A stretch of 64,000 nucleotides of DNA from Hyphomonas sp. (GTDB taxonomy: Bacteria; Pseudomonadota; Alphaproteobacteria; Caulobacterales; Hyphomonadaceae): contig CP051229.1 of assembly GCA_017792365.1 (NCBI GenBank), positions 682,001 through 746,000 on the forward strand, written 5' to 3'. This document shows positions 5,247-32,942 of the stretch, piece after piece. Numbering within the stretch: the first letter of the stretch is position 1; the number at the start of each line of letters is the position of its first letter. A program made the position numbers and the translations under genes. The notes below the pieces were generated by a model. That model was not told the origin of the DNA. It saw only the letters and a list, made by a program, of their open reading frames with translations, and did no database searches.

Positions 5247-5323
5247 GCGGGTGTAGCTCAGTTGGTTAGAGTGCCGGCCTGTCACGCCGGAGGTCGCGGG
5301 TTCGAGCCCCGTCACTCGCGCCA
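5247..5323 (+). tRNA. tRNA-Asp (anticodon GTC), CCA encoded
   Basis: A 77-nt cloverleaf. Acceptor stem GCGGGTG pairs with CACTCGC (one G-U). The D arm is AGCTCAGTTGGTTAGAG. Anticodon stem CCGGC/GCCGG flanks CTGTCAC with anticodon GTC. The T arm contains GGTTCGAGCCC, with discriminator G and genomic CCA at 5321-5323. It sits alone between the prepilin peptidase and nuoA. Confidence 0.97.
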
Positions 5324-26825: not shown

Positions 26826-27532
26826 CCACCGACGCTGTTCTCCAGCTATCAGACGTCTGGCAGAGCTTCGCTTCCGGTGAGCGAAGACTGGATGTCCTTC
26901 GCGGCGTTGAGCTCTCCCTGAAGCCGGGCGAGCTGACCGGTCTGATCGGGCCATCGGGATCGGGAAAATCGACACTGCTCCATGTTGCCGGCCTGCTTGA
27001 GCGCCCCGACAAGGGCGAGGTCCTGGTCAACGGCAAGCCGGCGCTCAAGCTGTCAGACAAGGAACGCACCTATATCCGGCGCACGCAGCTGGGTTTCGTG
27101 TACCAGTTCCACCATCTGCTTCCCGAGCTGAACGCCATCGACAACATCGCAGCGCCGCTGATGCTCAACGGCGAACCCCGCGCCAAGGCCAGACGCCGGG
27201 CCGCCGAGTTGCTTGCCATGATGGGGCTGGAGAAACGCGATCATCACCGGCCGGGCCAATTGTCCGGCGGCGAACAGCAGCGTGTCGCGATTGCACGATC
27301 GTTGGCAAATCGACCGCGCGCGCTCATCGCCGACGAGCCAACAGGCAACCTCGACCCCTCCACTTCTTCTCGCGTCTTCAAGGCGCTGCACGACATTGCT
27401 AGACAGGAAGGCGTCGCAGTCCTTGTGGCCACGCACAACCTTGAGCTCAGTGCGCTGATGGACAGGGTGTTGACACTCGAAAATGGCCGCCTGGTCCCCG
27501 CGCCACGCTCCGAGACCGCCGACTCGGTTTAG
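26822..27532 (+). CDS. lolD: lipoprotein-releasing system ATP-binding protein
   Basis: ABC ATPase that powers LolC. The 236 residues contain Walker [10 protein letters not shown] near residue 42, signature [15 protein letters not shown] near residue 145 and Walker [13 protein letters not shown] near residue 163, with the MacB/LolD-type pattern around it. It is translationally coupled to lolC (ATGA). Confidence 0.95.
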
Positions 27533-27566
27533 CCTGCCGGACGTCAGCGCAGACCGCGAGGATCCT

Positions 27567-30500
27567 ATGGACCCGAAATTCATTCATCTCCGCGTCCGCA
27601 CGGCCCTCTCACTGTTGCAGTCAATGATCCGGCCGGCGGATCTGGTGCGCTGGGCGGTCGACGCCAACACGCCGGCTGTCGGCGTTACCGATGACAATCT
27701 GTTCGGCGCGCTGGAGGTTTCAGAGAAGCTGTACGGCGCCGGCATCCAGCCCATCATCGGCTGTACGCTCAGAGTGACGGACCCAACAGCGCCCGGCCTC
27801 CGGCGGCAGGTCGCGGTGCTCGCCCAGTCCGATGAAGGGTATCGCAATCTCCTCGCGCTTTCCTCGGAATACTTCCTGAGTGAGCCGGGTGATCTGCGCG
27901 TGGAGTTCGCCAGCCTGTTGGAGCGAGCGCCAGGCCTGATCTGTTTGAGCGGTGGGTCGGCGGGTATACTGAATGCTCATGCTGAGTCCGGCCGCCGTGC
28001 AGAAGTAGCTGGCGTGTCTGACACCCTTCTCGAAGCCTTTGGCGACCGCTTCTATATCGAGTTGCAGAGGCACGGCAGGCCGGAGGAAGTGAACGCCGAG
28101 GAAGTGCTTCTCGACGTCGCTTATGACAAGGGCATTCCCATTGTCGGCACCTGTGACGCACGGTTCCTGAAATCCGAGCAGCACGAGACGCACGACGTCC
28201 TGCTCTGCATGGGCCATTCGACCTACGTGTCGGAAGCAAACCGGCCTCGGGCGACGCCAGAACAGTACCTGAAGTCACAGGACGAGATGGAGCAGGTGTT
28301 CTCCGATCTGCCCGAGGCGCTGGCGAACACCGTGGAAATCGCACGCAGGTGTGCGGTCAGGCCGACAACCCATGCGCCGATCCTGCCCAGTTTCACGACC
28401 GAAGCAGGACGAGACGAGGGAGCAGAACTCGCCGCGCAGGCCAGAGAAGGCCTCGAAGAGAGGCTCAGCGGCGGCAGGCTGTACGCCGACAGGCAAGTCT
28501 ACGAGGACCGCCTCAGCTACGAACTCGATATCATCAGGAAGATGGGGTTCCCCGGCTACTTCCTGATCGTTTCGGACTTCATCAAGTGGGCCAAGGCGAA
28601 CGACATCCCCGTGGGCCCCGGTCGTGGCTCGGGCGCCGGATCGCTGGTCGCATGGGTGCTGACCATCACCGATCTCGACCCGCTGCGTTTCGGACTTCTG
28701 TTCGAGCGCTTCCTCAATCCCGAGCGCGTCTCCATGCCCGACTTCGACGTCGACTTCTGTCAGGAGCGGCGGGGGGAGGTCATCGAGTACGTCCGAGACA
28801 AATACGGCGCGGACCGCGTCGCCCAGATCATCACATTCGGCACCCTCCAGGCGCGCGCCGTGCTTCGGGACGTTGGACGCGTTCAGCAATTGCCATTTGG
28901 CCAGGTCGACAAACTGGCGAAGCTGGTGCCCTTCAACCCGGCCAATCCGCCCACGCTCGAAGACGCGATGCGAGACGAGCCGCGCATCCGCGAAGCGATG
29001 GACGCTGAAGAGGCGGTGGACCATCTGGTAAAGACAGCGCTTCAACTTGAAGGGCTGAACCGCAACGCATCTACACACGCCGCCGGCGTGGTGATCGGCG
29101 ACCGGCCGCTCGTGGAAATCTGCCCGCTCTATCGCGATCCCAAATCGGATATGCCGGCGACCCAGTTCAACATGAAATGGGCTGAGCAGGCCGGTCTCGT
29201 GAAATTCGACTTCCTCGGCCTGAAGACGCTCACGGTCATCCAACGCGCACTGCAGTTCATCGAAAAGGAAGGCAAACAGCTAGGCGACGGCTGGGACACC
29301 TTCGACGATGCAGCGACGTACAAACTCATGTCGTCAGGCAACACCCTCGGCGTGTTCCAGCTCGAGGGGCAGGGCATGCGTGAAACCCTGCGCAAGGTTC
29401 AGCCTGGTTCTATCGAAGACGTGATCGCGCTGATCTCGTTGTATCGGCCCGGCCCGATGAAGAACATCGACACCTACGTTGACGCCAAGTTTGGCCGCAA
29501 GGATCCCGATTATCTCCATCCGGATCTCGAACCTGTTCTGAAGGAGACTTATGGGGTCATCGTCTACCAAGAGCAGGTGATGAACATTGTTCGTATCCTG
29601 GCCGGATACTCGCTCGGCGAGGCCGATCTGTTGCGTCGCGCGATGGGCAAGAAGCAACCGGAGGAAATGGCGAAACAGAAGTCGCGTTTCGTCGAAGGCG
29701 CAGCGGAGAAGGGTGTGAAGGCGCAGCGCGCCGAGTACATCTTCGAGCTGGTTGAGGAATTTGCGGGTTACGGGTTCAACAAATCTCACGCGGCAGCCTA
29801 CGCGGTGATCGCGTATCAGACCGGGTTTCTGAAAGCCAACCACCCGGTTGAATTCCTGGCCGCATCAATGAGCCTCGACATCCAGAACACCGACAAGCTG
29901 GCGGCTTTCTTTCAGGACGCGAAACGTCTCGAGATCCCCGTCCGCCCGCCGAGCGTGATGGACTGCAACGCCGACTTTGATGTCCGGGAGCAGGAAATCT
30001 ACTATGCGCTCGGCGCCATCAAGGGCGTGGGTAAGCCGGCAATGCTGGGCGTGGAGCGAAGCCGGGCGCAGAAGCCATTTGCCGACCTGCAGGATTTCGC
30101 GAAGCGCGTAGACCCAAGACAGGTCAATCGCCGGAGCCTTGAAGCACTGGCCCGCGCCGGAGCATTTGATCAGCTGGAGCCCAATCGCGCCAGCGCCCTG
30201 GCTGCAGCGTCCACGTTGAGCGCCGTCGCAAACGCCGCAGAGCAGGAACGGACGAGCAATCAGAACAGCCTGTTCGGCGAAGCCGAGATGGCGGCTCCGG
30301 CATTGCCAAGAGTGAAACCGTGGAGCGAGTCTGAAAAACTGGACAACGAGCTCGCAAGCGTGGGCTTCTTCCTGTCTGGCCACCCACTGGACGAGCTTCT
30401 CGACAGCGACCTCCGCAAGCAGATCGTCCTGGCCGCGGAGCGGCTCGAGGCCGGGCTGCAACGACAATCGTTCAACATGATAGGGGTCGTAAGGACGCGG

Positions 30501-30965
30501 GTCGAGAAACCGGCAAGATCCGGCGGAAAGTTCGCATACGTGACGCTTTCAGACCCCTCCGGCGAGTTCGAGATCATGGTGCCGCCAGAGCTCCTCTCGG
30601 AAGCGCGCGACCACCTTGAAGAGGGTTCCCGCATCTACTGCCGGGTCAAGGTCCGGCGCATGGATGACGACATGAGGTTCTCGATGGAGGCCGTGAAACC
30701 GCTTGCCCGTGCTTCAATCGGGTCTCACGACGCCCTGTGCGTGCGGCTCACCTCAGACGTGCCCCTGGAGAGCATCGCGGAGGTGGCCCGAGCGCTCCCA
30801 AGAGCGGCTGGGCAACCCAATGGATCCCTCCGGCTCGAGATCCCAGTGGGAGAGCAGGGCATCGTGACGGTAGAGGTCGAAGGGCGATATCCGGTAGATT
30901 TCGGCGCGATCAGTGCGTTCAAGTCGATCCCCGGAATAGAGCAGGTCAGGCCAGTCCACGACTGA
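27567..30965 (+). CDS. dnaE: DNA polymerase III subunit alpha
   Basis: Replicative C-family polymerase, 1132 aa from the ATG at 27567. An N-terminal PHP domain opens the protein (FIHLRVRTALSLLQSM). The catalytic aspartates lie in MPDFDVDFCQERR near residue 390, and GPGRGSGAGSLVAW precedes them. YGFNKSHAAAYAVIAYQTG marks the fingers. The C-terminal OB domain includes SDPSGEFEIMVPPE. The frame is open upstream to 27483, but that portion overlaps the end of lolD. Confidence 0.97.
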   Translation: MDPKFIHLRVRTALSLLQSMIRPADLVRWAVDANTPAVGVTDDNLFGALEVSEKLYGAGIQPIIGCTLRVTDPTAPGLRRQVAVLAQSDEGYRNLLALSSEYFLSEPGDLRVEFASLLERAPGLICLSGGSAGILNAHAESGRRAEVAGVSDTLLEAFGDRFYIELQRHGRPEEVNAEEVLLDVAYDKGIPIVGTCDARFLKSEQHETHDVLLCMGHSTYVSEANRPRATPEQYLKSQDEMEQVFSDLPEALANTVEIARRCAVRPTTHAPILPSFTTEAGRDEGAELAAQAREGLEERLSGGRLYADRQVYEDRLSYELDIIRKMGFPGYFLIVSDFIKWAKANDIPVGPGRGSGAGSLVAWVLTITDLDPLRFGLLFERFLNPERVSMPDFDVDFCQERRGEVIEYVRDKYGADRVAQIITFGTLQARAVLRDVGRVQQLPFGQVDKLAKLVPFNPANPPTLEDAMRDEPRIREAMDAEEAVDHLVKTALQLEGLNRNASTHAAGVVIGDRPLVEICPLYRDPKSDMPATQFNMKWAEQAGLVKFDFLGLKTLTVIQRALQFIEKEGKQLGDGWDTFDDAATYKLMSSGNTLGVFQLEGQGMRETLRKVQPGSIEDVIALISLYRPGPMKNIDTYVDAKFGRKDPDYLHPDLEPVLKETYGVIVYQEQVMNIVRILAGYSLGEADLLRRAMGKKQPEEMAKQKSRFVEGAAEKGVKAQRAEYIFELVEEFAGYGFNKSHAAAYAVIAYQTGFLKANHPVEFLAASMSLDIQNTDKLAAFFQDAKRLEIPVRPPSVMDCNADFDVREQEIYYALGAIKGVGKPAMLGVERSRAQKPFADLQDFAKRVDPRQVNRRSLEALARAGAFDQLEPNRASALAAASTLSAVANAAEQERTSNQNSLFGEAEMAAPALPRVKPWSESEKLDNELASVGFFLSGHPLDELLDSDLRKQIVLAAERLEAGLQRQSFNMIGVVRTRVEKPARSGGKFAYVTLSDPSGEFEIMVPPELLSEARDHLEEGSRIYCRVKVRRMDDDMRFSMEAVKPLARASIGSHDALCVRLTSDVPLESIAEVARALPRAAGQPNGSLRLEIPVGEQGIVTVEVEGRYPVDFGAISAFKSIPGIEQVRPVHD

Positions 30966-30989
30966 TGGCCCAAACCGGCACGCGCTGGG

Positions 30990-31017
30990 TTGCGAACAGC
31001 CAAAAACCGCGTATAAG
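30990..31017 (+). promoter_or_regulatory. candidate sigma-70 promoter for rpsB
   Basis: TTGCGA (30990-30995) and TATAAG (31012-31017) with a 16-bp spacer, just after the dnaE stop. Transcription would begin near 31024, leaving an 85-nt leader before rpsB. This is one of the better consensus matches in the window. Confidence 0.6.
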
Positions 31018-31023
31018 CCCGCC

Positions 31024-31108
31024 TATCTCGACCCACGGACCAAATTGTCCGGTGCTGACCATGAGGTTAGCCCGTCCGTGGCGGCCAACCGGATGAAGGA
31101 GAAACGAC
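31024..31108 (+). promoter_or_regulatory. structured rpsB leader, candidate S2 autoregulatory element
   Basis: An 8-bp perfect stem CCACGGAC (31033-31040) with GTCCGTGG (31074-31081) encloses a hairpin CTGACC (31055-31060)/GGTTAG (31065-31070) with an ATGA loop. An alternative hairpin CGGAC (31036-31040)/GTCCG (31047-31051) competes for the same 5' strand. CCGGT (31049-31053) could also pair with ACCGG (31088-31092) near the AAGGAG ribosome site. Ribosomal protein S2 represses its own leader in enterobacteria, so a similar control here is plausible but unproven. Confidence 0.45.
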
Positions 31109-31912
31109 GTGGCACTGCCCGAATTCAATATGCGCCAACTGCTGGAAGCTGGCGTTCACTTTGGTCACCAAGCACATCGCTGGAACCCCAAGATGAAGGG
31201 GTTCATCTTTGGCGAACGGTCGGGGATCCATATTCTCGATCTATCGCAGTCCGTTCCGCTGCTCCACCAGGCGCTGGTTCAGGTCCGCGAAGTCGCCTCG
31301 AAAGGCGGCCGTATCCTGTTCGTAGGCACCAAGCGCCAGGCCGCCGAGGCGGTCGCTGAGGCCGCTGGCCGCTGCGCACAATATTACATGAACGACCGCT
31401 GGCTGGGCGGCACCCTGACCAATTGGGAAACGGTGTCCAAATCGATCCGGCGCCTGAAGGAACTCGATGAGACCCTGTCGCGCGGCGACGCCACTGGCCT
31501 CACCAAGAAAGAGCTGCTCAAGCTCACGCGCGAGCAGGAAAAGCTCCAGCGAGTGCTCGGCGGCATCCGCAACATGGGCGCGCTGCCGAACCTCATGTTT
31601 GTGATCGACACCAACAAGGAAGCGATCGCGGTCAAGGAAGCCCGCAAGCTCGGGATTCCGGTTGTGGCCATCGTCGACACGAACTGCGACCCGGATGAAG
31701 TTGACTTCCCCATCCCCGGAAACGACGACGCCGCGCGCGCCATTCAGCTCTATTGCAACCTGATCGCAGACGCGGTTCTCGATGGTCTCGCTCAGTCGAG
31801 CGTTTCCGCTGGTACGGACCTTGGCGCTGAAGTCGAGGCGCCCGTCGAACCGGCTCTCGAAGGGACGGGCGAGGCAAGTGGCGAACAGGCTGCTGGCGGT
31901 GCTGCCAACTAG
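31109..31912 (+). CDS. rpsB: 30S ribosomal protein S2
   Basis: Small-subunit protein of 267 aa, starting at GTG 31109 about 8 bp after AAGGAG. The family core is intact: [16 protein letters not shown] at the start, [29 protein letters not shown], and [24 protein letters not shown] split across two strands. The last 40 residues are an acidic, Ala/Gly/Glu-rich tail, common in alphaproteobacterial S2. A strong promoter and structured leader precede it. Confidence 0.98.
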
Positions 31913-32016: not shown

Positions 32017-32942
32017 ATGGCCGAGATCACCGCAGCGCTAGTCAAGGAACTTCGCGAGAAGACCGGCGCCGGCATGATGGACTGCAAGGCGCTCGCCGAT
32101 CCAATGGCGACATGGAAGCCGCCGTGGACTGGCTCAGGGCGAAAGGCCTGTCCAAGGCGGCTAAGAAGGCCGGCAGGACCGCTGCTGAAGGCACGGTGGG
32201 CGTCATGACGGATGCGAAGTCCGGCGCGATCGTTGAGGTCAACGCCGAGACCGACTTCGTCGCTCGCAACGAACTGTTCCAGAAGGCCGTCATGGCGACG
32301 ACAAAGATCGCGCTCAAGAACGACGGTGATTTCGAGAAGGTTATCGCGGCGCCCGCTCCCGATGGAGACGGCACGGTGAAGGACATGTTCGTCAATCTTG
32401 TCGCCAAGATCGGTGAAAACATGCAGCTGCGCCGCACTGCAGGCGTAAAGGTCGGCGAGGGCGTGGTTGCGCCATACATCCACAACGCTGCGGCTGACGG
32501 GATGGGCAAGATCGGCGTTCTGGTCGCGCTGGAATCGAGCGCCAAGTCGGATGACTTGCTCGATCTCGGCCGGAAGATCGCAATGCACGTCGCAGCAGCC
32601 CGTCCGCTCGCGGCCACGACTGCGGAACTCGACCCTCAGGTTGTCGAGAAGGAGCGGGTCATCCTGACTGAACAAGCCAAGGAATCCGGCAAGCCAGACA
32701 ACGTCGTCGAGAAGATGGTCGAGGGCCGTCTGCGCAAATTCTATCAGGAATCCGTCCTGGTCGAGCAGGCGTTCGTCATGGATCCCGACGTGACCGTTGG
32801 TAAGTTCATCGAGAACACCGCCAAGGAACTCGGCGCCCCGGTGACGCTCAAGGGCTTCATCAAGTTCGAGGTGGGCGAGGGCATCGAGAAGGAAGAGACC
32901 GATTTCGCCGCAGAAGTCGCAGCCTTCTCAAAAGCCGAGTAG
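32017..32942 (+). CDS. tsf: elongation factor Ts (frame broken near 32100)
   Basis: Guanine-nucleotide exchange factor for EF-Tu. The ATG at 32017 follows AAAGGAA and gives [19 protein letters not shown], then the frame is lost. The other frame continues from [19 protein letters not shown] through [13 protein letters not shown] to 32942. One added base at about 32100 joins them to about 308 aa. The UBA-like segment also reads DCKAL where the family has DCKKAL, so a whole AAG codon may be missing near 32086. The exchange core and C-terminal dimerisation regions are intact. Confidence 0.94.

Follow-up and report, generated by a model that had tools for sequence, protein, structure and literature searches.

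The rpsB-tsf leader of a Hyphomonas sp. is a compact member of the rpsB motif and a probable site of feedback by ribosomal protein S2

The rpsB locus and its promoter

The stretch of DNA analysed (the window, 64,000 nucleotides from a Hyphomonas sp.) carries at positions 31109-31912 of the + strand the gene rpsB, encoding ribosomal protein S2, whose product has a Pfam Ribosomal_S2 match with an E value of 6.1e-97. The gene dnaE (27483-30965) is placed ahead of it and, according to the ORF translations and Pfam, rpsB is followed by tsf and pyrH; a further gene in the window is, from its translation, presumably frr. The start codon of rpsB is GTG, and a Shine-Dalgarno sequence, AAGGAG, can be read from the sequence 7 nt ahead of it (31096-31101, + strand). 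At 99 rpsB loci, that of the window included, the start was ATG in 89, GTG in six and TTG in two, two being not assignable, and several weak starts are found in close relatives (L002, L003, L004, L007, L008 and L099). Among the named records listed, a listing from which very near genomes may be missing, the closest S2 protein is that of L099, an uncultured alphaproteobacterium (83% identity), followed by that of L060, Hyphomonadaceae bacterium UBA7672 (80%). The gene encoding EF-Ts, tsf (32017-32942), has its N-terminal start and its remainder in two different frames, and the frame change near 32096 may stem from a sequencing error or from a genuine frameshift.

Upstream of rpsB lies a promoter sequence (30990-31017, + strand) composed of TTGCGA (30990-30995), a 16-nt spacer and TATAAG (31012-31017). 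Although a strict consensus promoter scan of 30500-31700 listed no promoter, the boxes are present, as the sequence-only reading of this DNA had proposed, and they are conserved: the pattern TTG[CA]NN-N15-19-TA[TCG]ANN occurs within 60 nt ahead of the first stem of the leader (P1, see below) in 55 of 77 relatives' leaders, compared with 0.8% of mononucleotide shuffles (three of 80 leaders were dropped from this count, their upstream sequence being too short). The start of transcription is expected at about 31023-31026. The same reading had named a start downstream of 31040 as evidence against itself; the start placed here, near 31024, is upstream of that point, so that all of P1 should be within the transcript.

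Elements of the leader

All elements of the leader are on the + strand. In the window P1 is a helix of 8 bp (31033-31040/31074-31081) formed by the 5' strand CCACGGAC and the 3' strand GUCCGUGG, both recognised by covariation and by folding, the outermost base, 31033, being paired in few relatives. The loop of P1 holds UCCGGU (31048-31053), which corresponds to J2-3 of the published rpsB motif and can form a pseudoknot with ACCGGA (31088-31093), a strand that ends 2 nt before the Shine-Dalgarno sequence. It also holds the predicted hairpin P3, GCUGACC-AUGA-GGUUAGC (31054-31071), with 7 bp (31054-31060/31065-31071); by eye, its letters vary among relatives and the hairpin stays. Between P1 and the 3' pseudoknot strand is the linker CGGCCA (31082-31087), part of a conserved GGNGGC-type stretch (by eye). 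According to the predicted fold, P2 of the motif is absent in the window, and it can be read in the leaders L025, L028 and L040, which belong to one genus of the family.

All the pairings drawn in the sequence-only reading do exist. CGGAC at 31036-31040 can pair with GTCCG at 31047-31051 over 5 bp, or with GTCCG at 31074-31078 inside the 8-bp stem P1; the CTGACC/GGTTAG hairpin is the inner part of the 7-bp P3. The suggested CCGGT/ACCGG pseudoknot extends to the six-base strands given above, which covary, and since it matches the published layout it is the rpsB motif's own. The minimum-energy fold of 31024-31130 includes P1 and P3, and is somewhat more stable than shuffled sequences (z -1.72, with 11 of 200 shuffles equally good). 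It is conservation, and not folding energy, that sets the leader far above chance.

Covariation of P1 and the pseudoknot

Leaders of relatives were gathered with the covariance model R2, which matched 88 of 98 sources searched, giving 84 distinct leaders; the sources with no R2 match were L022, L037, L057, L076, L081, L082, L083, L085, L087 and L098. L074, whose leader has 1 nt, was left out, loci L100-L139 were unused, and the window, which has the same leader as L001, stood for it in the set of 88. Two of the unmatched records deserve a remark: judged by eye, the rpsB leaders of L087, titled Bordetella sp. MAG, and of L085, from Brevundimonas diminuta, are almost the same, and L087 may therefore be mislabelled or come from a mixed bin.

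In the 84 distinct leaders, 111 cells of P1 and the pseudoknot carry double changes (102 in P1 and nine in the pseudoknot), against a mean of 25 in shuffled alignments, and none of 500 shuffles was as high. At least one double change was observed in all eight pairs of P1 and in two of the six pairs of the pseudoknot. The covariation score of the two helices together is 0.300 compared with 0.153 in shuffles, and drops to 0.070 or less when the partner is slid by 1-3 columns. Only 15 of 81 leaders have a standard pair where the window has its outermost one, 31033-31081; the stem common to the relatives is therefore one of 7 bp, every pair of which has double changes. The alignment behind these counts was fitted to P1 and so is biased towards that stem; A1, made with plain MAFFT from 14 close relatives including the window, agrees with it. 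In A1 five pairs have double changes, all in P1, and the score of P1 and the pseudoknot is above that of all 500 shuffles, the pseudoknot hardly varying at this distance. The covariation that the sequence-only reading had proposed to look for is thus present in P1 and the pseudoknot, whereas its alternative stem stays at about the level of shuffles.

The pseudoknot was also evaluated leader by leader, in 80 of the 88 rows (four identical rows and four with a gapped P1 were excluded). Its 3' strand occurs in eight forms, and an exact 5-nt partner of the leader's own strand was found inside the P1 loop in 79 of the 80, including 21 of the 22 with a non-canonical 3' strand; a 6-nt partner was found in 62 of the 80 and in 10 of the 22. 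Shuffled loops contain such partners in 16.6% (5 nt) and 2.5% (6 nt) of cases. Controls weaken this result. A 5-nt partner of the canonical strand is present as well in 14 of the 22 leaders whose own strand is non-canonical (four of the 22 for 6 nt), and when non-canonical strands are combined with canonical loops, 624 of the 1276 combinations contain a 5-nt partner (67 of 1276 for 6 nt), since the forms overlap. The form AUCGGA is present in eight leaders (L071, L077, L034, L041, L052, L080, L090 and L094), from records of Brevundimonas, Caulobacter and Asticcacaulis and other genomes of the order, and seven of the eight leaders have a 5-nt partner in the P1 loop; these strands are natural compensatory changes of use for the design of mutants.

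Relation to known leaders and distribution

The leader belongs to the published rpsB motif (Rfam RF01815), of which it is a compact representative. In the passages of Meyer et al. (2009, PMC2704228) that describe it, the motif consists of a long P1 and of P2 and P3, which vary in length and of which either may be absent; the 3' extension that follows P1 forms a pseudoknot with the P2-P3 junction. The motif is reported in most Alphaproteobacteria and in other groups. The leader shares with this description its place directly before rpsB, P1, P3 and the pseudoknot between junction and 3' extension; moreover P1 covaries and the P2/P3 junction is variable among relatives. The RF01815 consensus has the strands UCCGGU and AACCGG, as has the leader in the window, which differs from the motif in lacking P2 and in its short loops. 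Both the kind of element and its presence in Alphaproteobacteria are therefore already published (PMC2704228, in the same passages).

The Rfam models, however, do not call it. At gathering thresholds cmscan of the window gave no match to the leader and reported a tRNA only; this tRNA gene (5247-5320, + strand) is the sole Rfam match over threshold in the window. With a permissive threshold RF01815 aligns over its full length with 31030-31105; the match has 16.9 bits and E 0.35 and does not reach the gathering score of 40, and a search of the leader's own genome with RF01815 gave no match at E 0.1. R3, a model made from six relatives with the window excluded, matches 31021-31104 at 55.7 bits. 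Over the 3.4-Mb genome the leader has an E value of 5.7e-10 with R3 and the next matches have 4 and 6 (the calibration is rough), so that it is the only convincing R3 match in the genome.

A model of seven leaders, the window included (R1), has a match at E 0.1 or less in 92 of 105 genomes of the family, many of them weak, and a second match elsewhere, mostly weak, in nine of the family's genomes. Where rpsB could be located, an R1 match lies 0-20 nt upstream of it in 32 of 35 family genomes, a count in which only the matches at rpsB were entered and second matches elsewhere were left out; the three genomes that R1 misses (G009, G029 and G016) have leaders that do match R2 (L018, L019 and L020). 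RF01815 reaches E 0.1 in two of the 105 family genomes and its cut-off in none of them, and the family's compact variant is thus easily missed by the Rfam model. In a class-wide sample of 142 genomes, RF01815 has matches at E 0.1 or less in 92, over the cut-off in 36, and R2 has matches at E 0.01 or less in 64; all these genome-sample searches with R1, R2 and RF01815 used stricter filters, by which some weak matches are lost.

The rpsB leader of E. coli, annotated as T44, matches RF00127 at 83.5 bits. This S2 operator, or t44 RNA, resembles the leader studied here, by eye, in its place before rpsB, in P1 and in a linker of the GUGGAGGC type. Its strands CACGTATC and GATACGTG would form P1, its GGGGU and ACCCC would be able to form the pseudoknot, and its GTGGAGGCATAACC stands against GTGGCGGCCAACC in the window; the order CACGTATC, GGGGT, GATACGTGGAGGCATAACCCC is likewise, by eye, that of the window, namely P1, junction strand, P1, linker and 3' strand. 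The letters of P1 and of the pseudoknot are different and the inner stem of the E. coli leader is longer. RF00127 was absent from the three Rfam matches that the window gave at E 10 or less, and neither R2 (at E 1 or less) nor RF01815 matched the E. coli leader. The proposed link between the two leaders thus draws on their layout and on the published motif, none of the models used giving a statistical link.

Alternative folds

Leaders with mutually exclusive folds are riboswitch-like switches, and the present leader is like them in having one strand with two possible partners. Two exclusive folds were the regulatory principle of the sequence-only reading, with the hairpin CGGAC/GUCCG (31036-31051) as the alternative to P1. 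On such a bistable scheme the P1 5' strand would have two possible partners, the 3' strand of P1 and the pseudoknot strand; in the second case the P1 3' strand would pair with CGGAU (31090-31094), and S2 would choose the fold. We regard this as highly unlikely, although several results lean towards it. With the pseudoknot ignored, the strand-swapped fold, whose second hairpin is GUCCG (31074-31078)/CGGAU (31090-31094), is at -29.5 kcal/mol, 1.0 above the P1 fold (-30.5). The 5' alternative hairpin is predicted in transcripts ending at 31050-31077, yields to P1 at 31080, and keeps a probability of 0.32 in the full leader compared with 0.68 for P1. With G-U counted as a pair, 53 of 79 leaders can form a stem of at least 4 bp (of the 80, one had no located pseudoknot strand), as can 29 of the 37 whose pseudoknot strand is within 12 nt of P1. 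These 37, which have no room for P2, carry A at 31037, which breaks the alternative stem, in four cases against 17 of the 42 others (Fisher p 0.004, kinship ignored). Moreover, only 14 of 500 shuffles reach the pairing of the alternative stem and nine of 500 its 13 double-change cells (8.2 in shuffles), and slid versions of it pair less (19.0-56.3%). These leanings, in base composition at 31037 and in small excesses over shuffles, are mild and take no account of relatedness. Against them stand the pair counts: in the 84 distinct leaders 76.6% of the cells of the alternative stem are paired where shuffles give 74.7%, its covariation score is 0.112 against 0.102 shuffled, a margin far from the one given above for P1 and the pseudoknot, and all of its double changes are at the outermost pair, 31040-31047, which is paired in 23 of 59. 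As a 5-bp stem it is not conserved, being found in only three of the 37 short-spaced leaders and six of the 79 overall; its central G-C is broken in four of the 14 close relatives, at the column where four preserve P1 through double changes from G-C to A-U. Of the 80 leaders, 14 have the 5' half of the swap in their best fold free of P1, nine have the 3' half and six have both. Folds of any kind free of P1 are better than the P1 fold or within 2 kcal/mol of it in 44 of 80, and a count of the rows puts them below it in 27 of the 80. Near-equality therefore says little in an energy model without pseudoknots; P1 and P3 with free pseudoknot strands have -23.8 kcal/mol and the isolated pseudoknot duplex -8.5, no pseudoknot penalty being modelled. 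On pair counts, helix lengths and the energies with P1 enforced or forbidden, we rejected the bistable switch as the main reading. The alternative stem owes its existence to the likeness of the pseudoknot strand UCCGG to the 3' strand of P1, and it is most likely a by-product of that likeness: unlike the second pairing of a switch, it is not kept as a stem in relatives and covaries little.

Another pairing, of UCUC at the 5' end of the leader (31026-31029) with the Shine-Dalgarno sequence, is predicted in the nested minimum-energy fold of the window and could in principle sequester the ribosome site as the main control. That this is so in nature is hardly credible, since in 80 leaders the 5' end pairs with its own Shine-Dalgarno region at a mean of -3.71 kcal/mol and with those of other leaders at -3.76, and 128 of 200 permutations were equally good; a conserved sequestration by the 5' end was rejected for want of any signal in this test. 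The same result is in favour of a constitutive role, in which the conserved fold protects or positions the start of the mRNA, for stability or as a standby site, and is insensitive to S2. Experimental S2 control in Alphaproteobacteria was likewise not found in the titles and abstracts of the open-licence literature searched, nor were any S2 response, protein binding or expression results for this lineage. A constitutive fold is nevertheless unlikely, though less so than the two pairings just considered, as the R1 match sits directly before rpsB in nearly all of the family genomes checked (see above) and the layout is that of the E. coli leader on which, according to the account of the operator in PMC10931766, S2 acts.

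Proposed regulation and significance

Taking the evidence as a whole, the rpsB-tsf 5' leader is best explained, with fairly high probability, as a compact rpsB-motif RNA through which S2, probably together with S1, would exert feedback. The original papers on S2 control in E. coli are reportedly those of Aseev (2008), Fu (2013) and Mustoe (2019). For E. coli, PMC10931766 reports that structures of the 5' UTR mediate the repression of rpsB-tsf by excess S2 with the help of S1; in the same passages the ribosome site is described as outside the S2 operator and the mechanistic details as unclear. This repression, along with the E. coli-like layout of the leader, makes S2 feedback its most likely function. 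The sequence-only reading had arrived at translational feedback by S2 from the two folds; the feedback is probable on the grounds of the rpsB motif and the E. coli operator, and its former basis finds no support. Of that interpretation in general, the structured leader, the conserved promoter and the pseudoknot near the ribosome site stand, while two exclusive folds as the regulatory principle are unsupported: the alternative stem pairs about as often as in shuffles and the full swap is the best P1-free fold in so few leaders.

The sequence comparisons show the fold with its covariation, the promoter sequence and the place of the leader. By analogy with E. coli we infer that S2 binds the leader, that S1 helps and that initiation is blocked; one rpsA match above the cut-off was found in the genome. 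Free S2 in excess over 30S subunits, probably with S1, would bind the leader fold and hold the pseudoknot against the ribosome site, which would lower the translation of rpsB and, through rpsB, that of tsf. The pseudoknot, 2 nt before AAGGAG, is the likely point of contact. Because the operator of E. coli, in the account of PMC10931766, excludes the ribosome site, a block by the pseudoknot in Hyphomonas is a guess.

As the alternative fold is energetically close in this sequence, it may have a transient role. In leaders with no P2 the P1 5' strand might first form a hairpin with UCCGG and then hand over to P1 and the pseudoknot, the handover being timed by the synthesis of the P1 3' strand; we consider such a course, timing included, very doubtful. 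If it were true, there would be a short state that is translation-competent or blind to S2, and the matching strands of P1 and the pseudoknot would be a built-in switch.

The case illustrates that a published ribosomal-protein leader, when viewed alone, can pass for a new bistable switch. Across an entire family of Alphaproteobacteria the rpsB motif takes a compact form that goes uncalled by the current Rfam model, and an improved model would open S2 autoregulation outside the Gammaproteobacteria to tests in cultured relatives.
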